DNA from: Pseudotabrizicola formosa
GTDB lineage: Bacteria; Pseudomonadota; Alphaproteobacteria; Rhodobacterales; Rhodobacteraceae
Length of the DNA: 64,000 nt
Direction: 5' to 3'
Assembly: GCF_002900965.1 (NCBI RefSeq)
Contig: NZ_PJOM01000001.1
Coordinates: 434,001-498,000, forward strand
The position numbers were made by a program, and so were the translations under genes. The number at the start of each line of letters is the position of its first letter. Position 1 is the stretch's first letter. Positions 47,824 to 62,344 of the stretch are shown in pieces. Under the pieces are notes generated by a model. That model saw only the letters and a program-made list of their open reading frames with translations. It was not told where the DNA came from and did no database searches.

Positions 47824-47893
47824 TTTCCGAAAAAATTGTCTGATGGCTCTCCATCGCCTAGAGTCACCTCAACAGCGCTTTGGAGGAGCCGCC

Positions 47894-49084
47894 ATGTCTT
47901 CGCAGAACCCTGTCTTCATTCCCGGCCCGACCAATATTCCCGAGGTCATTCGCAAGGCCTGCGACATGCCCACGCTCGACCACCGCTCCCCCGCCTTTGC
48001 CCGGCTGTTCCGTCCGGCGGTGGCCGGCGTGCGCCGGGTGCTGAAGATGGCCGAGGGTGAGGTCATCATCCTGCCCTCCACCGGCACCGGCGGGTGGGAG
48101 GCGGCGATCACCAATACCCTGTCGCCCGGCGACACCGTGCTGGCCGCGCGCTTTGGCATGTTCAGCCACCGCTGGATCGACCTGTGCCAGCGCCACGGCC
48201 TGACCGTGCAGATCATCGAGACGCCATGGGGAGAAGGCACCCCGCTGGACCGGATAGAAGCCGCGCTGAAGGCCGACACCAGTGGCACGATCAAGGCCGT
48301 CCTCGCCACCCATAACGAGACCGCCACCGGCGTGCGGTCCGACATTGCAGGCCTGCGCCGCGCCATGGATGCGGCGGTCCATGGCGCGATGCTGATGGTT
48401 GATGGCGTGTCGTCCATCGGGTCGATGCCGTTCGAAATGGGGGCTTGGGGCGTTGATATCGCGGTGGCGGGCAGCCAGAAGGGGTTCATGCTGCCCGCCG
48501 GTCTGGCGATTGTTGGCGTCAGCCCCAAGGCCCTGGCGGCGATGGACAGCGCGATGCTGCCGCGCACTTTCTTTGATTTCAAGGACATGCTGAAAAGCTA
48601 TGCCGCAGGTGGGTTCCCCTATACCCCACCGGTCGGGTTGATCGCCGGCCTTGCCCGGTCGATCGAACTGCTGGAGGATGAAGGGATGGAGGCTGTCTAT
48701 GCCCGCCATCACCGCCTGGCGGAAGGCGTGCGCCGTGCGGTTGCCGCCTGGGGCATGCGCCCCTGTGCCGTGACGCCTGACCTGTATTCCGACACGGTGA
48801 CCGCCGTGATGGTGCCCGAGGGCTGCAATGGCACGGATCTGGTGAAGCTGGCGGCCGAGAAATACGGTGTGGCCTTTGGCGTCGGCCTGGGCGAGGTGGC
48901 GGGCAAGGTGTTCCGCATCGGACACCTGGGGATGCTGACCGATGTGATGGTGCTGTCCGGCCTTGCCACCGCCGAGATGTGCATGGCCGATCTGGGCTGG
49001 CCGATCACGCTGGGGTCGGGCGTGGCGGCGGCGCAGGAGTATTATCGCGGGTCATCCGTGGCGCTGGCCATGGCCGCGGAGTGA
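47894..49084 (+). CDS. bhcA: L-aspartate:glyoxylate aminotransferase BhcA
   Basis: PLP aminotransferase of class V, 396 residues, similar to serine-glyoxylate aminotransferase. In the beta-hydroxyaspartate cycle it transfers the amino group from aspartate to glyoxylate, giving glycine and oxaloacetate. Residues in view are the N-terminal FIPGPTNIPEVIRKA, STGTGGWEAAI (cofactor phosphate region), D170 in MLMVDGVSSIG and the Schiff-base K196 in AGSQKGFMLP. A GGAGGAGC ribosome-binding site precedes the ATG. Family membership alone would allow serine-glyoxylate activity; the operon decides. Confidence 0.93.
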   Translation: MSSQNPVFIPGPTNIPEVIRKACDMPTLDHRSPAFARLFRPAVAGVRRVLKMAEGEVIILPSTGTGGWEAAITNTLSPGDTVLAARFGMFSHRWIDLCQRHGLTVQIIETPWGEGTPLDRIEAALKADTSGTIKAVLATHNETATGVRSDIAGLRRAMDAAVHGAMLMVDGVSSIGSMPFEMGAWGVDIAVAGSQKGFMLPAGLAIVGVSPKALAAMDSAMLPRTFFDFKDMLKSYAAGGFPYTPPVGLIAGLARSIELLEDEGMEAVYARHHRLAEGVRRAVAAWGMRPCAVTPDLYSDTVTAVMVPEGCNGTDLVKLAAEKYGVAFGVGLGEVAGKVFRIGHLGMLTDVMVLSGLATAEMCMADLGWPITLGSGVAAAQEYYRGSSVALAMAAE

Positions 49085-49091
49085 GGCGGCA

Positions 49092-49140
49092 CCCCCGGGG
49101 CTCTGCCCCGGACCCCGGGATATTTTGAAACAGATAATGA
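49092..49140 (+). repeat. Hairpin-plus-tail repeat, copy 1 (bhcA-bhcB spacer)
   Basis: GGGG-CTCTG-CCCC hairpin followed by GGACCCCGGGATATTTTG and AACAGATAATGA. A very similar sequence lies between allA and the ureidoglycine aminohydrolase gene. The hairpin with T-rich tail could attenuate transcription between bhcA and bhcB. Confidence 0.75.
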
Positions 49141-49164
49141 CCAAGGATGAAGGATCTGCCCCAG

Positions 49165-50118
49165 ATGCATGTGCCGACCTTTGACGATGTGATTGCGGCG
49201 CATGACCGCATTCGCCCCCATATCCACCGCACGCCGGTGCTGACATCGCGCTATTTCAATGAGTTGGTGGGCGCTGAGCTGTTCTTCAAATGCGAGAACT
49301 TTCAGAAGGCCGGGGCGTTCAAGGTGCGCGGGGCCTGCAATGCGGTGTTTGGGCTGGGGGAGGATCAGGCAAAGGCGGGGGTTTGCACCCATTCCAGCGG
49401 CAACCATGCGCTGAGCCTGTCTTATGCGGCGGGGCGGCGGGGCATCCCGTGCAATGTGGTGATGCCGCGCACGGCACCACAGGCCAAGAAGGATGCGGTG
49501 CGGGGCTATGGCGGGGTGATCACGGAATGTGAGGCATCCACCAGCAGCCGCGAGGCGGTGTTTGCCCAAGTGCAGGCGCGGACGGGGGGAGAGTTTGTGC
49601 ACCCCTACAATGACCCGCGCGTGATTGCCGGGCAGGCCACCTGTTCGCGCGAACTGCTTGAACAGGTTGAGGATTTGGACTGCGTTATCGCACCAATTGG
49701 TGGGGGCGGCATGATCTCGGGCACCTGTCTGACCATGAGCGCGATTGCCCCGGGGGTGGATGTCTATGCGGCTGAGCCGTTGAATGCCGATGACGCCTAT
49801 CGCAGTTTCAAGGCGGGCAGGATCATTGTCGATGATGCGCCCGAAACCGTGGCCGACGGGTTGAAGGTGCCGCTGAAGGACCTGACCTGGCATTTCGTCT
49901 CGAACCACGTCGCCGATATTTTCACGGCCACGGAAGAAGAGATCATCGCGGCGATGAAGCTGACCTGGCAGCGGATGAAGATCGTGATGGAGCCAAGCTG
50001 CGCCGTGCCGCTGGCCACCCTATTGAAAAACAAGGATGTCTTCCGGGGGCGGCGCGTGGGCGTCATCATCACCGGGGGGAACGTCGATCTGGACACTTTG
50101 CCTTGGATGAAAGGGTAA
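49165..50118 (+). CDS. bhcB: beta-hydroxyaspartate dehydratase BhcB
   Basis: Fold-type II PLP enzyme of the serine/threonine dehydratase family, 317 residues. It dehydrates (2R,3S)-beta-hydroxyaspartate to iminosuccinate in the cycle. The PLP lysine is K53 in CENFQKAGAFKVRGA, the phosphate loop is SSGNHALSLS, and the Gly-rich GGGGMISG follows. The second in-frame ATG was chosen because AAGGATC lies at proper distance; the earlier ATG at 49147 has its ribosome-binding site too close. It ends four bases before bhcC. Confidence 0.93.
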   Translation: MHVPTFDDVIAAHDRIRPHIHRTPVLTSRYFNELVGAELFFKCENFQKAGAFKVRGACNAVFGLGEDQAKAGVCTHSSGNHALSLSYAAGRRGIPCNVVMPRTAPQAKKDAVRGYGGVITECEASTSSREAVFAQVQARTGGEFVHPYNDPRVIAGQATCSRELLEQVEDLDCVIAPIGGGGMISGTCLTMSAIAPGVDVYAAEPLNADDAYRSFKAGRIIVDDAPETVADGLKVPLKDLTWHFVSNHVADIFTATEEEIIAAMKLTWQRMKIVMEPSCAVPLATLLKNKDVFRGRRVGVIITGGNVDLDTLPWMKG

Positions 50119-50122
50119 CACC

Positions 50123-51286
50123 ATGAACAAGCACGCAGATTTCGAAGGCTTCGAGGTAGGCTATGACATTCCGGCCCTGCCGGGGATGGATGAGGCGGAT
50201 ATCCAGACCCCGTGCCTTGTGCTGGATCTGGACGCTTTGGAGCGCAATATCAAGAAGATGGGCGATTATGCCCGGGCGCATGGCATGCGCCACCGGGTGC
50301 ATGGCAAGATGCACAAATCGGTCGATGTGGCCTTGCTGCAAGAGCGGCTTGGCGGGTCGGTGGGTGTGTGTTGCCAGAAGGTGTCGGAGGCCGAGGTTTT
50401 TGCCCGGGGCGGCATCAAGGATGTGCTGGTCAGCAATCAGGTGCGCGATCCGGCCAAGATTGACCGGCTGGCGCGGATGCCGAAATTGGGTGCAAGAACA
50501 ATTGTTTGCGTCGATATGCTGGACAATGTCGCCGACCTGTCGGCGGCGGCGGTGCGGCATGGCACGACCATCGAATGTCTGGTGGAGATCGACTGCGGGG
50601 CCGGGCGCTGCGGGGTGAAGACCACGCCGGAGGTGGTTGCCATCGCACAGGCGATTGACGGCGCGCCGGGGCTGAAATTTGCGGGGCTGCAGGCCTATCA
50701 GGGGGCGATGCAGCATATGGACAGCTACGCCGACCGCAAGGCCAAGATCGACCTTGCCGTGGCGCAGGTCAGGGACGCGGTGGAGGGGCTCAAGGCCGTG
50801 GGGCTGGCGTGCGACATCGTGGGCGGCGGCGGCACCGGCAGCTATTATTTTGAAAGCAATTCCGGCGTTTACAATGAGTTGCAATGCGGCAGCTATGCGT
50901 TCATGGATGCCGATTATGGCCGGATTCTGGACAGGGATGGCAAGCGGATTGATCAGGGCGAATGGGAGAATGCGCTGTTCATCCTGACCTCTGTGATGTC
51001 CCATGCCAAGGCGGACAAGGCCATTGTGGATGCCGGATTGAAGGCGCAATCGGTGGATTCCGGGCTGCCGGTGATCTTTGGGCGGACGGATGTAAAGTAC
51101 GTCAAATGCAGTGATGAGCATGGCGTGGTTGATGACCCGGCCGGGGTCTTGAGCGTCAATGACAAGCTGCGGCTGGTGCCGGGCCACTGTGATCCGACCT
51201 GCAATGTGCATGATTGGTATGTCGGTGTGCGCGGCGGGAAGGTCGAAGTGGTCTGGCCGGTGTCTGCCCGGGGCAAGGCCTATTGA
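50123..51286 (+). CDS. bhcC: beta-hydroxyaspartate aldolase BhcC
   Basis: Fold-type III PLP enzyme of the D-threonine aldolase family, 387 residues. In the cycle it condenses glycine and glyoxylate to beta-hydroxyaspartate. The PLP lysine is K62 in RVHGKMHKSVDVA. The metal ligands are H355 and D357 in VPGHCDPTCNVHDWYVG. The barrel shows VEIDCGAGRCGV and DIVGGGGTGSYYF. Standing after bhcB with an almost immediate start, it forms part of one operon. Alone, family membership would also fit D-threonine or 3-hydroxyaspartate aldolases. Confidence 0.94.
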   Translation: MNKHADFEGFEVGYDIPALPGMDEADIQTPCLVLDLDALERNIKKMGDYARAHGMRHRVHGKMHKSVDVALLQERLGGSVGVCCQKVSEAEVFARGGIKDVLVSNQVRDPAKIDRLARMPKLGARTIVCVDMLDNVADLSAAAVRHGTTIECLVEIDCGAGRCGVKTTPEVVAIAQAIDGAPGLKFAGLQAYQGAMQHMDSYADRKAKIDLAVAQVRDAVEGLKAVGLACDIVGGGGTGSYYFESNSGVYNELQCGSYAFMDADYGRILDRDGKRIDQGEWENALFILTSVMSHAKADKAIVDAGLKAQSVDSGLPVIFGRTDVKYVKCSDEHGVVDDPAGVLSVNDKLRLVPGHCDPTCNVHDWYVGVRGGKVEVVWPVSARGKAY

Positions 51287-51299
51287 GATGGGAATTGAC

Positions 51300-51354
51300 C
51301 GTATGGTTCGTGTCTGGCCCGCGTATGGTGCGCGTATGGCAAACGTCATGACGC
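51300..51354. repeat. 11-bp phased tandem repeat, five units (bhcC-bhcD spacer)
   Basis: Five consecutive 11-mers, CGTATGGTTCG, TGTCTGGCCCG, CGTATGGTGCG, CGTATGGCAAA and CGTCATGACGC, carry a CGTATGG-like core at one-turn spacing. The array fills most of the 78-bp spacer ahead of the bhcD ATG. The same core and period are seen downstream of pckA. Confidence 0.7.
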
Positions 51355-51364
51355 GGGTGCGGGC

Positions 51365-52324
51365 ATGAGGATTGTGCCGGAAGCGCTGATTGCGGGGCTG
51401 GTGTCGCCCGAGGATGCCTTTGCGGCGGTCGAGGCGGTGTTTGCCGCCATGTCGCGGGGAGAGGCCTATAACTTCGACGTGGTGCGCGAAGCCTTGGGCG
51501 AAGGGCGGCAGTACGGGTTCAAGTCGGGGCTGGACCGGGCTGGCGGGCAGCTGGGGGTGAAGGCCGGGGGGTACTTTCCGGGCAATGCGGCGCGGGGGAT
51601 CATCAACCACCAATCCACCGTGTTCCTGTTCGATCCGGAGACCGGGCGGCCCACGGCCATGGTGGGGGGCGGGCTGTTGACCGCGCTGCGCACCGCCGCC
51701 GCCTCGGCCATTTCCATCGACCGGCTGGCGCGGCGGGAGGCGCGCGTGCTTGGCATGGTGGGGGCCGGGCATCAGGCCGGGTTCCAGCTGCGCGCGGCGG
51801 CGCGGGTGCGGGAGTTTGAGCGGGTGATCGCCTGGAACCTGCACCCCGAGATGCTGGACAGCCTGGGCACGATTGCGGCCGAGCTGGGCCTGCCGTTCGA
51901 AGCGGTGCCTCTGGCGCGGATGGCAGAGGCGGATGTGATTGTGACGATCACCTCTTCGCCCGCGGCCAGCCTGATGAGTGCGCCTGTGGCACCGGGCACG
52001 CATCTGGCCTGTATGGGGACCGATACGAAGGGCAAGCAGGAGGTGGAGCCGGCGCTGCTGGGCCGTGCGTCCGTCTTTACCGATGAGATTGCGCAATCGG
52101 TGAGCCTTGGCGAGGCGCAGCATGCGGTGGCGGCGGGCCTGCTGGATGCGACGGCGATCACGCCTTTGGGCGATGTGATCACCGGCAGGCACCCGGGGCG
52201 GCGGTCGGCGGAGGAGATCACGCTGTTTGATGGCACCGGCGTTGGCTTGCAGGATCTGGCGGTGGCGGCGATGGCCGTGCGCCGGGCGGAAGAGCGCGGG
52301 CAGGGCGTGGTGGTTGAGGTTTAG
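51365..52324 (+). CDS. bhcD: Iminosuccinate reductase BhcD
   Basis: Ornithine cyclodeaminase/mu-crystallin family NAD(P)H enzyme, 319 residues. It reduces iminosuccinate to L-aspartate, closing the cycle. Visible motifs are a substrate-binding Lys in LGVKAGGYFPGN, a Rossmann loop in RVLGMVGAGHQAGFQL, ADVIVTITSS and GVGLQDLAVAAMAV. The start has no strong ribosome-binding site; the 11-bp repeat array stands where one would expect it. Without context an ornithine cyclodeaminase call would be made, but the operon supports BhcD. Confidence 0.92.
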   Translation: MRIVPEALIAGLVSPEDAFAAVEAVFAAMSRGEAYNFDVVREALGEGRQYGFKSGLDRAGGQLGVKAGGYFPGNAARGIINHQSTVFLFDPETGRPTAMVGGGLLTALRTAAASAISIDRLARREARVLGMVGAGHQAGFQLRAAARVREFERVIAWNLHPEMLDSLGTIAAELGLPFEAVPLARMAEADVIVTITSSPAASLMSAPVAPGTHLACMGTDTKGKQEVEPALLGRASVFTDEIAQSVSLGEAQHAVAAGLLDATAITPLGDVITGRHPGRRSAEEITLFDGTGVGLQDLAVAAMAVRRAEERGQGVVVEV

Positions 52325-53549: not shown

Positions 53550-54785
53550 TCAGGCTTTGGGAGGGCGGGTTTCATCTGTGCCGGGCGTCAGGCCGTAGCG
53601 GGCGGCGATGGCCCAGACATGGGGCGGGATCATGTTTTTCATCCGCGCCGGATGGGCGCGGCGCAGATGGAGGATGGTTTCCACCGCTTTCATCTCGACC
53701 CGTGCACGGGCGAATTCCAACCCCTTGGGACCGAAGCGGCGTTGCATCAGGCCGACCAGCGGGCGCAGCCAGTTGGGCATGCGGCGGAGCGGCAGGCCAC
53801 CGGCGGCGCGGGCGGTGTTTTCCATGAAGCCTTTGACGGCGGCTTCGCGTTTGCCGGAGGAGGTGAGGGGGGTAGTGGTCAGGCGGTCAGCGATCATTGC
53901 CAGCAGGTCTGCACCGCGCGCGTTGCGGGCGATGATCCATTGGTCGCCGTCGCCGCCCATATAGCCCACGGTGATATCGGCCAGACGGTTGGTGTAATCG
54001 ACGCAGGTCTTGCAGGTCATCGGGAAGAAATCGGCGGGCAACTGGCTGATGGGGAGCTGCAGGAAGGGGATGAAGCGGGGTTTGCGGCCATCGTCGAAGC
54101 GCAGTTCCACGCGGAAATCGGCGCGGAATTCGAGGTAGCTGATGGTCTGGGGGGCCGCGTCCAGCAGGTTCAGGAAACTGTGGAAATTCGCGGTCGTGGT
54201 GTTGTCGGAGCAGGGGGTGCCGATGATGTAGAGCGCGTCCAGCCCCAGTTCGGATTCGAGCGCGCGCAGGGCGTAGGTCTGGCAGGGGATGCCGATCATC
54301 GCCAGCCGCTTGTATCCGGCGGCGCGGGCGGGTTCCAGCAGCGCCAGCGTGGGCGCCCAGCCCATGCGCATGCCGCGGGCAAGCGCCATGTCGGCGGGGT
54401 TGGTGATGAGGGCGGGCAGGGGTTTCCAGCGGTCGGACGGGTCTGGCAGCACGGTCAGGACGGCATCAACCAGCCCGCGTTCGAGCAGCGTGGCGGCGAG
54501 GGTGGTGGTGATGCCGGTCCATTGCGCGCCGGGGGCCGGGGGGGTGAGGCGGGCGCGCAGCATGGTCTGGGTGACGCCGAAGAAGGAGTCATCCGTGCCG
54601 GGGGTGGCGCTGCGGCCATGCACCGCCAGTTCCAGTGCGGGGTAGTCGGGGGCGATGAACTGGCAGGCACGCCCGCAGGCGCGGCCATCGCCCAGGCGCG
54701 AGATGCCGCAATCGGTGCAGAGCCCGTCGCGCGGGCCACCGGGGAGGGTGGGGATCTGCGGGCCGGGGGTGGTGTGGTCGAACAT
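53550..54785 (-). CDS. FrhB/BciB family iron-sulfur flavoprotein, candidate 8-vinyl reductase
   Basis: A 411-residue protein of the coenzyme F420 hydrogenase beta-subunit family. The N-terminal cluster has Cys in LCTDCGISRLG and ACGRACQF; further Cys are in CKTCVDYTNRLADITVGYMG. The middle part, AMIGIPCQTYALRALE and YIIGTPCSDNTTT, is characteristic. Bacterial members include BciB, the ferredoxin-dependent 8-vinyl reductase of (bacterio)chlorophyll synthesis, and hydroxymethyl chlorophyll reductase. A TGT-N12-ACA dyad upstream points to photosynthesis control, so BciB is the best guess. An AAGGAGG ribosome-binding site precedes the ATG. Confidence 0.72.
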   Translation of the reverse strand: MFDHTTPGPQIPTLPGGPRDGLCTDCGISRLGDGRACGRACQFIAPDYPALELAVHGRSATPGTDDSFFGVTQTMLRARLTPPAPGAQWTGITTTLAATLLERGLVDAVLTVLPDPSDRWKPLPALITNPADMALARGMRMGWAPTLALLEPARAAGYKRLAMIGIPCQTYALRALESELGLDALYIIGTPCSDNTTTANFHSFLNLLDAAPQTISYLEFRADFRVELRFDDGRKPRFIPFLQLPISQLPADFFPMTCKTCVDYTNRLADITVGYMGGDGDQWIIARNARGADLLAMIADRLTTTPLTSSGKREAAVKGFMENTARAAGGLPLRRMPNWLRPLVGLMQRRFGPKGLEFARARVEMKAVETILHLRRAHPARMKNMIPPHVWAIAARYGLTPGTDETRPPKA

Positions 54786-55100
54786 GGGGCCTCCTTGGCG
54801 ATGGGGGCAGAATAGAACTGTCAGGAAAAAATGACAGTGCCTTGTGGCGGGGGGGGGAGGCGGACAGTCGGGCGGAGGCCGCATGGCAGGCTGACCCCAA
54901 ATCCTGCGGCAATGGACAGGGGCGGGGTGGGGTATGCCTGTTGCAGGCCGGGCGGCCTGCTGTCCTGTGGCCGAAGGGGGCCCCGCTGCGGTGGCGGGGG
55001 CGGCTTTGCCGCTGCGGACCCTGTTTCCGGTGCGTTTGGCTTTGGGCGTTTGGCAGGTCCCTTGGCGCAGCCTCTATGTCCGGGCTGGCCTGCCCCCCGT
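54786..55100. other. 315-bp intergenic region with regulatory dyad and hairpins
   Basis: No credible gene. Besides the PpsR-type site, it holds a strong hairpin, GCAGGCC-(4 nt)-GGCCTGC, around 54943-54960, and smaller GC-rich dyads near 54997 (GCGGC-TTT-GCCGC). These probably end transcription coming from the other side. Confidence 0.5.
54817..54838 (-). promoter_or_regulatory. TGT-N12-ACA dyad, candidate PpsR/CrtJ operator
   Basis: ACTGTCA and TGACAGT form a perfect 7-bp inverted repeat with an 8-bp spacer, containing TGT-N12-ACA, the consensus of the photosynthesis repressor PpsR/CrtJ. It lies 32-53 bases upstream of the BciB-like ATG, over the expected promoter. Binding is inferred from the match. 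Confidence 0.6.
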
Positions 55101-55577
55101 TCAGGGTGCCAGGACCGTCCAGCTGTCGCGGTAGCGGTGTTCTTCGAGGTTTGGGCTGGCACCGATGCGGTCGACCACGGCGAAGAGGCCGGGGGCGTGG
55201 AGCGGGGTCAGCACGCCATGCCAGGTGCCGCGATGCAGATTGATGCCCTGGCTGCCATCGGTCAGGAAGGCGAGGGGGGGCGCATCGGGGCCGGGAGCGA
55301 CGATGACCAGAAACGGATGCGCGGTCATCGGGAGGAAGGCCTGGGAGCCGTCGGGGTGGCGTTCGATCAGGTCAAATGTGTAGGGCAGGGTGCGGGGGGC
55401 GGCCTGGAAGATGGAGATCCCGGCGCGGCCATCGGGCCCGAAATCGAGGGTGGCGCGGTCGTGGTGGCGCTGGCAGAGGCCTGCGTTGATGAGGCGGAAC
55501 TCTCCCGTCGCGTCGAGAATGTCGCCATAGGGGGCGAAGGCCTGGGCGGTGAGGGGGATGGGCGTGATGACCTGCAT
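55101..55577 (-). CDS. allA: Ureidoglycolate lyase
   Basis: Splits (S)-ureidoglycolate into glyoxylate and urea. The 158-residue protein starts MQVITPIPLTAQAFAPYGD and has INAGLCQRHHDRATLDF, SIFQAAPRTLPYTFDLIERHPDGSQAF split by a turn, and INLHRGTWHGVLTPL. The conserved His/Arg set of the AllA cupin-like fold is present. The chosen ATG removes about 75 unconserved residues. It is the final step of the purine set; the product glyoxylate feeds the bhc cycle nearby. Confidence 0.93.
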   Translation of the reverse strand: MQVITPIPLTAQAFAPYGDILDATGEFRLINAGLCQRHHDRATLDFGPDGRAGISIFQAAPRTLPYTFDLIERHPDGSQAFLPMTAHPFLVIVAPGPDAPPLAFLTDGSQGINLHRGTWHGVLTPLHAPGLFAVVDRIGASPNLEEHRYRDSWTVLAP

Positions 55578-55606
55578 CGGGCGTGCCTTTGGGCTGGGGG
55601 CGGAGC

Positions 55607-55661
55607 GGGGGGTTTCACACCCCCCGGACCCCCCGTGGGATATTTGGGAACAGATAATGGG
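55607..55661 (+). repeat. Hairpin-plus-tail repeat, copy 2 (allA spacer)
   Basis: GGGGGG-(7 nt)-CCCCCC hairpin, then GGACCCCCCGTGGGATATTTG and AACAGATAATG. Close to the copy at 49092: same hairpin, same GGATATTT core, same AACAGATAATG tail. It lies between two minus-strand genes, in the opposite orientation to them. Confidence 0.75.
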
Positions 55662-55672
55662 CAGGGGCGGGA

Positions 55673-56515
55673 TTACAGTGCCGGGCCGAAGGCCCCGGGG
55701 CCGCGCAGTCTGGCGTGGCGGTTGACGTCCTTGTAGAGCAGGTAGCGGAAGGGGCCGGGGCCTGCGGCATAGCAGGCCTGCGGGCAATAGGCGCGCAGCC
55801 ACATGAAATCGCCGGCCTCAACCTCGACCCAGTCCTGATTGAGCTTGTAGACCGCCTTGCCCTGCAAGACGTAGAGCCCGTGTTCCATCACATGGGTTTC
55901 CTCGAATGGGATCGTGCCGCCGGGCTGGAAGGTGACGATGTTGACATGGGCATCGTGGCGCAGATCGGCGGGGTCGGCAAAGCGGGTGGTGCCCCAGACC
56001 TGGTTGGTGCCGGGCATGAAGGTGAGGGGCATGTCGCGGTCATTGGTGAGGATGGGATCGGGGGGCGCGATGCCGGGGGCGGGGTCGTAGAGTTTGCGCA
56101 GCCAGTGGAAGCGGGCGGGGCTGCTGCCCGTGGCCAGCAGGGTCCAGGGCATGCCTGCGGGGATGAAAGCGTAGCTGCCGTCTTGCAGGGGGTGGCTTTG
56201 GCCGTCGAGGGTGAGGGTGGCGGTGCCTTCGGTGAAGAACAGCCAGTGTTCGGCGCCTTCCTCGGCGTCGGGGGTATCGGAGCCGCCGCCGGGGGCCACT
56301 TCCATCACATATTGGCTGAAGGTTTCGGAAAACCCGGACATCGGGCGGGCGATCAGCCAGAGGCGGGTGTCGCGCCAGCCGGGCAGGGCGCTGGTGACGA
56401 TGTCGGAAAAGCAGCCCTTGGGGATCACCGCATAGGCGGTGGTGAAGACGGCGCGGCCGGTCATCAGCTGGGTTTGCGGCGGCAGGCCGCCAGGGGGGGC
56501 GTAATACTGGGTCAT
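55673..56515 (-). CDS. (S)-ureidoglycine aminohydrolase
   Basis: Double-cupin Mn-dependent enzyme of 280 residues converting (S)-ureidoglycine to (S)-ureidoglycolate and ammonia. It starts MTQYYAPPGGLPPQTQLMTGR. The first cupin has GAEHWLFFTEGTATL and the second PFEETHVMEHGLYVLQGKAVY, with metal ligands Glu, His, His and Gln in that second block. YLLYKDVNRHARL ends the protein. The start overlaps the stop of the puuE-uraD gene, so the two are co-translated. Confidence 0.93.
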   Translation of the reverse strand: MTQYYAPPGGLPPQTQLMTGRAVFTTAYAVIPKGCFSDIVTSALPGWRDTRLWLIARPMSGFSETFSQYVMEVAPGGGSDTPDAEEGAEHWLFFTEGTATLTLDGQSHPLQDGSYAFIPAGMPWTLLATGSSPARFHWLRKLYDPAPGIAPPDPILTNDRDMPLTFMPGTNQVWGTTRFADPADLRHDAHVNIVTFQPGGTIPFEETHVMEHGLYVLQGKAVYKLNQDWVEVEAGDFMWLRAYCPQACYAAGPGPFRYLLYKDVNRHARLRGPGAFGPAL

Positions 56516-57927
56516 GGCAGGATGTCTTTCAGGCGCAGGGCGGCGATGCGTTCCACCTGGGCGCAGGCGGTGGTGAATTCGGTGGCGGTGTCATTGGCGA
56601 TGCGGGCGTGGAAGGCGGCAAGGATGCTGTCCTTGCTGTGGTCGCGCACGGCGATGATGAAGGGAAAGCCGTGCTTGGCGACATAATCGGTGTTGAGCCG
56701 CTCGAACGCCGCGCGCTCGGCATCGGTGAGCGCATCCAGCGCCGCGCTGGCCTGTTCGGCGGCGGAATCGGGTGTCAGCCGTTTGGCGGCGGCCAGTTTG
56801 CCGGCGAGGTCGGGGTGGGCCCGCAGCACGCCCAGCTTTTCGGCGGGGGTGGCGCTGCGGAACATCCGGGTCAGGGCGGAATGCACCCCGGCGGCGCAGT
56901 CATGCGCGGGGCCAAGTTCGAGGGCATGGGCGCGGTCGGCGATCCAGGGCGAGTGTTCAAAGATGCTGCCGAAGCACGCGGTGAAGCGGGCGCGGCTCAT
57001 CTGGCTGGGGCGTTCAAAGCGCCGGTGTGGGTGGGTTGCGGCCCAATGGCGGGCGATGTCGATGCGGCGGGGGAACCAGACGCCATCGTGGGTTTGTGCG
57101 TAGTCGAGGAAGCGTTGCAGGCCGGCAAATTTTCCGGGGCGGCCGATCAGGCGGTTGTGCAGGCCGATGGAAAACATCTTGGCCCGGCCTGCCTCGCCTT
57201 CGGCATAAAGCACGTCGAAGGTGTCTTTCAGGTATTGGAAGAACTGCTCGCCGGTGATGTAGCCGGGGGCGGTGGCGAAGCGCATGTCGTTTGCTTCCAG
57301 CGTATAGGGGATGACCAGCTGGTCATGGTCGCCGAGCGCCAGCCAATAGGGCAGGTCGTCATCATAGGTGTCGGAGATCCAGGCCAGTTTGCGGGACTCG
57401 GCGGTGAGGCGCACGGTGTTCATCGAACAGCGGCCGGTGTACCAGCCCTGAGGGGGCGCGCCGGTGAGCTCTTCGTGCAGGCGGAAGGAGTCTGCGATCT
57501 GGGCGCGTTCTTCATCTTCGGCCATGTCGCGGTGATCGACCCATTTCAGCCCGTGGCTGGCGATTTCCCAGCCTGCGGCCTGCATGGCGGCCAGCTGTTC
57601 GGGGTTGCGCGCCAGGGCGCTGGTCACGCCGTAGACCGTGACCGGCAGGCCGCGCGCGGTGAACAGGCGGTGCAGGCGCCAGAACCCGGCGCGGGCGCCG
57701 TAGTCATAGATCGACTCCATGTTCCAATGCCGCTGGCCCGGCCATGGCGCGGCCCCGGCGATGTCGGACAGGAAGGCCTCGGACTGGGCATCACCGTGCA
57801 GCAGGTTGTTCTCGCCGCCCTCTTCGTAGTTGAGCACGAGGGAGATGGCGATCTTGGCGCCACCCGGCCACCCGGCATCAGGGGCGTCGGGGCCGTGGCC
57901 ACGGAAATCTCGGGGGTAGCGGGTCAC
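56512..57927 (-). CDS. puuE: Allantoinase (PuuE) fused to OHCU decarboxylase (UraD)
   Basis: Fusion of two purine-ring enzymes in 471 residues. Residues 1-310 are a PuuE allantoinase of the polysaccharide-deacetylase fold, metal-independent: YPRDFRGHGPDAPDAGWPGG, LVLNYEEGGENNLLHGD, EIASHGLKWVDH and WYTGRCSMNTVRL. Residues about 315-471 are UraD, OHCU decarboxylase, with FGSIFEHSPWIADRA, LGVLRAHPDLAGKLA and RLNTDYVAKHGFPFIIAV. One chain thus makes (S)-allantoin and then allantoate. It opens the operon with the ureidoglycine aminohydrolase and allA. Confidence 0.94.
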   Translation of the reverse strand: MTRYPRDFRGHGPDAPDAGWPGGAKIAISLVLNYEEGGENNLLHGDAQSEAFLSDIAGAAPWPGQRHWNMESIYDYGARAGFWRLHRLFTARGLPVTVYGVTSALARNPEQLAAMQAAGWEIASHGLKWVDHRDMAEDEERAQIADSFRLHEELTGAPPQGWYTGRCSMNTVRLTAESRKLAWISDTYDDDLPYWLALGDHDQLVIPYTLEANDMRFATAPGYITGEQFFQYLKDTFDVLYAEGEAGRAKMFSIGLHNRLIGRPGKFAGLQRFLDYAQTHDGVWFPRRIDIARHWAATHPHRRFERPSQMSRARFTACFGSIFEHSPWIADRAHALELGPAHDCAAGVHSALTRMFRSATPAEKLGVLRAHPDLAGKLAAAKRLTPDSAAEQASAALDALTDAERAAFERLNTDYVAKHGFPFIIAVRDHSKDSILAAFHARIANDTATEFTTACAQVERIAALRLKDILP

Positions 57928-58082
57928 CGGGACACCTCACTTTCAGGTATTGCGGAAGGATAGACGCGAATTCTGCGCTGGTTTATCAAGAAATTCGAGA
58001 AAGACATATTGGGTGCACAGGCTGTCGTATCGGGGCGCGTTTCGTGCTGTGATGCAAGCCGGATCACAGGAAGGACCACAGG

Positions 58083-58436
58083 ATGGGACGGCTTTCGACG
58101 CATGTGCTGGATACGGCGCTGGGCAAACCGGCGGCGGGCGTGAAAATCCGGCTGTACCGGGTGAGCGGCACCTCATCCGAGCAGATTGCCGAGGTTGTGA
58201 CCAATGGTGATGGCCGCACCGATGCGCCGCTGTTGACTGGGGATGGCTTGACAGCGGGCACCTATGAGCTGGTGTTCCTTGCGGGCGATTACCTGCGCCA
58301 GACCGGGCAGGCGACGGGTGAGGTGTTGTTTTTGAACGAAATTCCGATCCGCTTTGGCGTGCCGGATGCAGGGCAGCATTATCATGTGCCACTGCTGATT
58401 TCGCCCTTTGCCTATTCCACCTATCGCGGCAGTTGA
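58083..58436 (+). CDS. hiuH: 5-hydroxyisourate hydrolase
   Basis: Transthyretin-like HIU hydrolase, 117 residues, converting 5-hydroxyisourate to OHCU. Family signatures are LSTHVLDTALGKPAAGV near the start and the C-terminal YRGS, plus HYHVPLLISPFAYSTY. It lies divergent from puuE-uraD over a 155-bp intergenic region that probably holds both promoters. It acts on the product of PuuD (61 kb). Confidence 0.96.
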   Translation: MGRLSTHVLDTALGKPAAGVKIRLYRVSGTSSEQIAEVVTNGDGRTDAPLLTGDGLTAGTYELVFLAGDYLRQTGQATGEVLFLNEIPIRFGVPDAGQHYHVPLLISPFAYSTYRGS

Positions 58437-61070: not shown

Positions 61071-61105
61071 AGCGTTTGCGCCAAGGACAGGCAGGAGGGC
61101 GTGCG

Positions 61106-62344
61106 ATGTATGATCTGGCGGTGATGTGGGAATGGGTCGAGATCGGCGTGCGCTGGCTGCATGTGATCACGGCCATCGCCTGGATCGGGTCGTCGTTCTA
61201 TTTCGTGGCGCTGGACCTTGGCTTGCGCAAGACCCCCAGCCTGCCGCCGCTGGCGCATGGCGAGGAGTGGCAGGTGCATGGCGGGGGGTTCTACCATATC
61301 CAGAAATATCTGGTGGCCCCCGAGATGATGCCCGAGCATCTGACATGGTTCAAATGGGAGGCCTATGCGACCTGGCTTTCGGGCTTTGCCATGCTGGTGC
61401 TGGTCTATTATCTGGGGGCAGAACTGTTTCTGATCGACCCCACCGTGATGGATCTGGCGGTGTGGCAGGCGATCGGCATTTCGCTCGCGTCGCTGGCCTT
61501 TGGCTGGCTGGCCTATAACACGCTGTGCCGGCTGTTCGTGAATGCGGATCAGACGGTGCTGATGGTGGCGCTGTTCGGGGTGCTGGTGGGGATGTCGTGG
61601 TTTTACACGCAAGTGTTTTCGGGCCGCGCGGCGCTTTTGCATCTGGGGGCGTTCACCGCCACGATCATGAGTGCGAATGTGTTCATGGTGATCATGCCCA
61701 ATCAGCGCATTGTGGTGGCCGATCTGAAGGCGGGGCGCAAGCCGGACCCGAAATACGGCAAGATCGCCAAGCAGCGCAGCACGCATAACAATTACCTGAC
61801 GCTGCCGGTGATCTTCCTGATGCTGTCGAACCATTATCCGCTGGTGTTTGCCACCGAGTATAACTGGATCATCGCGTCACTGGTGTTCCTGATGGGGGTG
61901 ACGATCCGGCATTGGTTCAACACCAAGCACGCGCGCAAGGGCAACCCGCACTGGACCTGGGGGCTGACGGCGATCCTGTTCCTGCTGATCGCCTGGCTGT
62001 CCACCGCGCCCTTGCGCACGGTGCCGGAGCCCGAGACTGCGCTGTCCGGGGCGGCCTTGCAGCACGCGGCGGCGGATGGTTTTGAAGATGTGGTGGGCAT
62101 CGTGCAGGGCCGTTGCAGCATGTGCCACGCGGCAGAGCCGTCTTGGGAGGGCATGGTCTGGCCGCCCAAGGGCGTGGTGCTGGAGACGCCTGCCCAGATC
62201 GCGCAAGAGGCGCGGCGGATCTATCTGCAATCGGGGGTCAGCCATGCGATGCCGCCGGGCAACCTGAGCTATATGGAGCCGGAAGAACGGCTTGCCATCC
62301 TCCGCTGGTTCCGCGCCGCGGACTTGGGCGGGGTAGAGGGGTGA
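61106..62344 (+). CDS. puuD: Membrane urate hydroxylase with cytochrome c domain (PuuD)
   Basis: PuuD-type urate oxidase of 412 residues that oxidises urate to 5-hydroxyisourate and passes electrons to the respiratory chain. About eight membrane helices (WLHVITAIAWIGSSFYFVAL, VWQAIGISLASLAFGWLAY, LPVILMLSNH-like helix) are followed by a periplasmic cytochrome c domain with the CSMCH heme motif around residue 336 and Met ligand in HAMPPGN. The ATG follows CAGGAGGG. This replaces the soluble uricase in many proteobacteria. Confidence 0.95.
   Translation: MYDLAVMWEWVEIGVRWLHVITAIAWIGSSFYFVALDLGLRKTPSLPPLAHGEEWQVHGGGFYHIQKYLVAPEMMPEHLTWFKWEAYATWLSGFAMLVLVYYLGAELFLIDPTVMDLAVWQAIGISLASLAFGWLAYNTLCRLFVNADQTVLMVALFGVLVGMSWFYTQVFSGRAALLHLGAFTATIMSANVFMVIMPNQRIVVADLKAGRKPDPKYGKIAKQRSTHNNYLTLPVIFLMLSNHYPLVFATEYNWIIASLVFLMGVTIRHWFNTKHARKGNPHWTWGLTAILFLLIAWLSTAPLRTVPEPETALSGAALQHAAADGFEDVVGIVQGRCSMCHAAEPSWEGMVWPPKGVVLETPAQIAQEARRIYLQSGVSHAMPPGNLSYMEPEERLAILRWFRAADLGGVEG

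Follow-up and report, generated by a model that had tools for sequence, protein, structure and literature searches.

The window analysed here, a 64,000-nt stretch of Pseudotabrizicola formosa (contig NZ_PJOM01000001.1), comes from a host described from its genome as Pseudotabrizicola-like, within the Rhodobacteraceae, and positions are those of the window unless a contig is named. Its minus strand carries at 53550..54785 a gene of 411 aa (coordinates with the stop codon included), which we name bciB as a putative ferredoxin-dependent 8-vinyl (divinyl-chlorophyllide) reductase. The ATG start codon occupies 54785-54783, with a Shine-Dalgarno sequence, AAGGAGG (54790..54796, minus strand), 4 bases ahead of it. 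Further upstream, at 54817..54838, stands a predicted PpsR/CrtJ-type operator without strand, ACTGTCA-GGAAAAAA-TGACAGT (N8 spacer), assigned from its sequence and its conservation upstream of orthologues. Its core, TGTCA-N8-TGACA (54819-54836), contains TGT-N12-ACA. The sequence-only reading had described a perfect 7-bp dyad holding TGT-N12-ACA 32-53 bases before the gene, and the coordinates confirm this. Two minus-strand promoter elements are predicted only: a -35-like hexamer within the operator, CTGTCA (54832..54837), matching TTGACA at 4/6 positions, and, 17 bp from it, a -10-like hexamer, TATTCT (54809..54814), matching TATAAT at 4/6.

The neighbouring genes belong to other pathways. A complete beta-hydroxyaspartate cycle operon, bhcA-bhcB-bhcC-bhcD, occupies 47843-52321 on the plus strand, with all four genes above their NCBIfam equivalog cut-offs, and is followed by a GAPDH-like gene. 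Purine catabolism genes lie at 55101-58436 and 61076-62344, including an allantoinase PuuE fused to OHCU decarboxylase, (S)-ureidoglycine aminohydrolase and hydroxyisourate hydrolase, together with ureidoglycolate-lyase-like and PuuD-like genes recognised by eye. Purine breakdown by these genes yields glyoxylate, on which the beta-hydroxyaspartate cycle encoded nearby acts. We found no evidence for a functional link between bciB and these adjacent purine or beta-hydroxyaspartate genes.

The protein and its cysteines

The protein matches the Pfam domains FrhB_FdhB_N and FrhB_FdhB_C, which on their own would allow it to be read as a coenzyme F420-dependent hydrogenase/dehydrogenase beta subunit. 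Against this, every NCBIfam F420 model scores far below its cut-off (about 59-76 bits against 269-475), including frhB (63.7 bits, cut-off 331.5) and FpoF (58.9 bits, cut-off 475). The nearest solved sequence is instead Arabidopsis HCAR (PDB 5dqr), with 239 bits over residues 12-397 and around 35% identity, compared to 55 bits for FrhB. An AlphaFold2 model (pLDDT 82, pTM 0.86) superposes on HCAR with a TM-score of 0.84 (390 columns), whereas F420 enzymes reach only 0.43-0.56. Both sequence and predicted fold therefore place the protein, over its full length, in the HCAR/BciB branch of the FrhB superfamily. Taken with the tie of the gene to phototrophy described below (PufM in 29/30 genomes with BciB), these results reject the F420 hydrogenase identity, which we regard as vanishingly improbable, and bear out the earlier suspicion that such a label misleads.

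Eight cysteines (C23, C26, C37, C41, C168, C192, C258, C261) are conserved, each in 99-102 of 103 sequences, so that the FrhB/BciB family protein with iron-sulfur cysteines proposed at the outset is recovered in both its domains and its conserved cysteines. By analogy with published BciB work, the eight would be assigned to two [4Fe-4S] clusters. Seven of them align with HCAR (C23, C26, C41, C168, C192, C258 and C261). A CxxCxxC stretch close to the N terminus is shared by HCAR and a Thiodictyon protein; in the clade of the window protein Ser29 replaces the third Cys and Cys37 appears instead (99/103), so the N-terminal CxxCxxC...C cluster motif of the HCAR type is absent. A review presents an AF3 model with ferredoxin on residues 9-40 of Synechocystis BciB (PMC13297055). 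Judged by that model, the N-terminal cysteine change would lie about where ferredoxin sits.

The predicted operator and the PpsR regulon of the host

As a generic dyad the upstream element is unremarkable: 13 perfect 7-bp dyads with an 8-bp spacer occur in the GC-rich 64-kb window, and bare TGT-N12-ACA shows no enrichment there (10 found, 6.5 expected). The specific sequence is a different matter. Strict TGTCA-N8-TGACA occurs once in the window against 0.07 expected, and six times in the 3.7 Mb genome against one occurrence of a reversed control pattern.

These six sites lie in the bchF/ppaA promoter region, just before bchG, in the divergent hemE/hemC region, at bciB, and inside two unrelated reading frames, the names bchF and ppaA having been assigned by position and length. 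Targets of PpsR in R. sphaeroides ChIP-seq include bchF, ppaA, bchG and hemE (PMC4344238), so the operator beside bciB sits within a regulon whose members are those expected. The two intragenic sites (C7:474109-474126 and C7:552028-552045 of the host genome, G000) fall in inositol-catabolism-type and glycosyltransferase-type reading frames, as named from their translations, and are probably non-functional. Scored with a matrix derived from 13 PpsR ChIP-seq sites of R. sphaeroides (PMC4344238 Table 2), the bciB operator receives 19.5 bits. In the host genome this matrix detects nine sites above 13 bits at C7:375-395 kb, plus one at hemE/hemC, and none above 13 bits in three other 20-kb pieces scanned of the C7 region.

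The regulator and the pathway are both encoded by the host. PpsR lies at C7:376698-378014 (TIGR02040, 510 bits, cut-off 275), and the photosynthesis gene cluster includes bchG, P, H, B, N, L, X, Y, Z, I and D, pufM, and crtI, B and C. The sequence-only reading had supposed that the organism makes bacteriochlorophyll, had proposed looking for puf/bch genes and ppsR in the genome, and had named a missing photosynthesis gene cluster as grounds for dropping the idea. The search finds all of them in place, which supports bacteriochlorophyll synthesis.

Conservation of the predicted operator among relatives

We compared 80 orthologues with their flanking DNA (988 kb in total), the nearest named being from Pseudotabrizicola, at 92% identity. 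Over this DNA the strict motif turns up 38 times, on every occasion within 250 bp upstream of bciB. When the loci are scored with the ChIP-derived matrix, the top-scoring position of the entire locus falls upstream of bciB in 56/80. The scores are bimodal: 54 promoters reach at least 17 bits and 24 stay at or below 8, with two close to 13 in between. None of the approximately 966,000 other positions of the orthologous loci reaches 17 bits. In a subset of 33 promoters sharing less than 55% flank identity with one another, conservation is 97% in the arms, 52% in the spacer and 40-43% in the flanks; the operator positions were picked by matrix score, which favours the arms in these figures, although the absence of background hits indicates that the choice did not draw on noise. 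A good site is missing in 24/80 orthologues, including those of close relatives (L019, L020, L021), and with sampling evened out to roughly one genome per genus the site is found in 18/30 orthologues. The PpsR-type site is thus kept, by the criterion of sequence, in many lineages and not in all.

Core promoters around the site vary. The near relatives L017, L018, L022 and L023 carry -10-like variants (TATTCT/TATCCT/TATTGT), and Pseudotabrizicola promoters have TATTCT four bases past the operator core. In Roseicyclus-type promoters the predicted -35 element is probably the downstream arm itself, TTGACA, with GATACT at 17 bp. Marivita promoters show neither of these -35/-10 layouts, and a single layout common to all relatives was accordingly rejected.

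It could be argued that the dyad arose by chance, or serves some other regulator, and that bciB is not under PpsR. The abundance of generic dyads in the window, the two strict sites inside unrelated genes and the 24/80 relatives lacking a good site all point that way. They are outweighed by the rarity and conservation of the specific sequence, by a matrix that is best in its locus in 56/80 cases with a background of zero at 17 bits or more, and by the recurrence of the same sequence at bchF/ppaA, before bchG and at hemE/hemC. We therefore reject a chance dyad and hold this explanation to be very improbable. The proposal of a PpsR/CrtJ-type operator gains in support, the element being conserved upstream of orthologues in many genera.

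Distribution of BciB and BciA

The distribution of the two 8-vinyl reductases was examined in 160 Rhodobacteraceae genomes from 159 genera, at least 95% complete. BciB is present in 30, BciA in 30 and PufM in 64, and no genome of the 160 contains BciA and BciB together. The 64 phototrophs divide into 29 with BciB, 29 with BciA, none with both and six with neither; PufM accompanies 29/30 BciB genomes. Fisher tests, not corrected for phylogeny, give p = 1.3e-12 for the avoidance between BciA and BciB and 5e-13 for the association of each with PufM. In the wider phylum the gene is found in 21/397 genomes, 20 of the 21 being in the host's class.

The BciA query was a protein of Rhodobacter sp. CZR27, reached through a DVR sequence of Arabidopsis (48% identity) and annotated only as an NAD(P)H-binding protein; its restriction to phototrophs supports the name. 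With this query, a BciA elsewhere in the genome of the window was rejected, the best match there having 29% identity and 39 bits and the only other being weaker.

The sole candidate for BciB without phototrophy, a genome lacking PufM and PpsR (G023), owes its hit to a lone 3,164-bp contig (G023:C24). This contig matches a MAG contig (L048) in length and coordinates, carries a Marivita-like BciB with a PpsR site, and is probably misbinned. Six phototrophs with PufM and PpsR have neither enzyme (G021, G024, G072, G092, G148, G153) and may rely on COR or carry divinyl pigment; one of them, G148, retains a short BciB-like remnant with two in-frame TGA codons.

The distribution bears on a further possibility, that the gene encodes a PpsR-controlled reductase of the HCAR/BciB family acting on another tetrapyrrole position (e.g., 7-hydroxymethyl, or a breakdown product) rather than on the 8-vinyl group. 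The nearest solved relative is indeed HCAR, at approximately 35% identity, and not a solved BciB, and in the six phototrophs without BciA and BciB another 8-vinyl reductase (COR) must suffice. The structure-library matches included no BciB, however, which makes HCAR as the nearest relative uninformative, and the exact exclusion of BciA in 58 phototrophs is the prediction for replacement at the same step. Moreover, purple bacteria are not known to run a chlorophyll b cycle. A reductase of another position consequently seems very unlikely to us.

Genomic context of bciB varies between relatives. In one genome (G116) bciB abuts puhA-acsF-puhE-hemA, and in Thiodictyon the neighbours of a 38%-identical protein are bchI, bchD and bchO; in another genome (G033), a scan of genes close to BciB on the contig with pufM brought up no bch matches.

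The promoters of bciA were scanned in 27 loci of the same genome sample. Only 2/27 have a good PpsR site in the 300 bp upstream, a figure obtained with approximate BciA starts and unresolved operons. These two loci (L106, L110) have a strong site directly upstream (23.0 and 19.4 bits), which suggests that BciA too can be drawn into the PpsR regulon, and two bciA loci have a strong site approximately 950 bp upstream. Since only 2/27 bciA loci carry a site within 300 bp, and since bciA is not among the R. sphaeroides PpsR ChIP targets (PMC4344238), PpsR control may belong more to the BciB branch than to the reaction itself, although this pattern in the promoters is suggestive only.

Discussion

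We consider it very likely that the gene at 53550-54785 (minus strand) is bciB of bacteriochlorophyll a synthesis and that the dyad at 54817-54838 is a PpsR operator placed over its core promoter. Computation establishes the operator sequence and its conservation, the presence of the cognate regulator and of the pathway, the protein family, and that BciA takes the place of this protein in sister genomes. The proposal from the sequence that the gene encodes a ferredoxin-dependent 8-vinyl reductase is likewise favoured by its place in the chlorophyll-reductase branch and its exclusion of BciA.

DNA binding, the sign and cue of the regulation, the cofactors, the substrate and the electron donor would follow the precedent of PpsR/CrtJ and BciB work in other organisms. 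In this model, PpsR in its active state (oxygen, light) would occupy the dyad and block RNA polymerase, switching bciB off together with the bch and hem targets; relief of PpsR would allow bciB to be made. Electrons from ferredoxin would then travel via two [4Fe-4S] clusters and FAD to reduce the C8-vinyl of divinyl-chlorophyllide to ethyl. With either the Pseudotabrizicola or the Roseicyclus layout, PpsR binding would exclude RNA polymerase. PpsR/CrtJ-type polymerase exclusion has been shown for bchC in R. capsulatus (PMC5362033) and for bchF in Dinoroseobacter (PMC10890935).

COR (chlorophyllide a reductase), a third 8-vinyl reductase, can also reduce the 8-vinyl group (PMC7242693, PMC4214422), so that a bciB knock-out need not yield purely divinyl pigment. 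Against the assignment stand the orthologues that lack a good site, the departure of the N-terminal cysteines from HCAR and the Thiodictyon protein, and a published result: Synechocystis BciB expressed in R. sphaeroides did not restore 8-vinyl reduction (PMC4214422), which indicates that the donor or folding needs of BciB are not trivial.

The presence of BciB in some purple bacteria has already been stated in a review (PMC7242693), and the very probable bciB identity of the gene is best seen as a solid correction of its label, a modest advance rather than a surprise. What is under-described is the relocated N-terminal cysteine, the frequent predicted PpsR control of bciB and not of bciA, and the clean either/or distribution; a literature search that missed most subscription journals, and so constitutes weak evidence, found no paper on bciB in the PpsR regulon or on the relocated cysteine. 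A survey of aerobic anoxygenic phototrophs found the bacteriochlorophyll a pathway complete in photosynthesis gene clusters bar the 8-vinyl reductase (PMC3176799). Our results point out this missing gene for about half of the sampled phototrophic Rhodobacteraceae genera, the other half using BciA. bciB usually lies away from the photosynthesis gene cluster, yet is often on the cluster's regulator, and its predicted operator adds a PpsR target that R. sphaeroides, as a user of BciA, could not reveal, alongside the correction of an F420 hydrogenase beta subunit label.

More tentatively, and with the balance of probability somewhat against it, alphaproteobacterial BciB could form a subfamily of its own, in which the N-terminal [4Fe-4S] site is re-wired (C-x2-C-x10-C-x3-C) close to where ferredoxin is predicted to dock, and which was recruited to the PpsR regulon while the BciA of sister genera stayed mostly outside. 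If true, a distinct PpsR-controlled subfamily would link the choice of 8-vinyl reductase to the tightness of pigment shut-off by oxygen and light.

Comparison with known systems

The characterised BciB proteins (Synechocystis slr1923, Chloroherpeton thalassium Ctha_1208 and Acaryochloris AM1_2849) resemble the window protein as chlorophyll reductases of the FrhB superfamily with Fe-S cysteines, tied to phototrophy and able to substitute for BciA, and known BciB has similarly been mislabelled as an F420 hydrogenase subunit (frhB; PMC4836224). The window gene differs from them in its predicted PpsR operator; the cysteine shift is a difference judged against HCAR and the Thiodictyon protein rather than against characterised BciB sequences. 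Arabidopsis HCAR (5dqr), the nearest solved relative, shares seven of the eight conserved cysteines but is an enzyme of the plant chlorophyll b-to-a cycle, and its N-terminal CxxCxxC is missing in the window protein. BciA/DVR of R. sphaeroides and plants performs the same reaction and fills the same slot in sister genomes (29/64 phototrophs), although it is an unrelated NADPH-dependent protein, rarely with an upstream PpsR site. Finally, the PpsR/CrtJ operators of bch, crt, puc and hem genes in R. sphaeroides and R. capsulatus share with the predicted site TGT-N12-ACA, the TGTCA/TGACA arms and a position over the core promoter; here, by contrast, a single operator stands on bciB, outside the photosynthesis gene cluster, whereas R. 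sphaeroides uses BciA.
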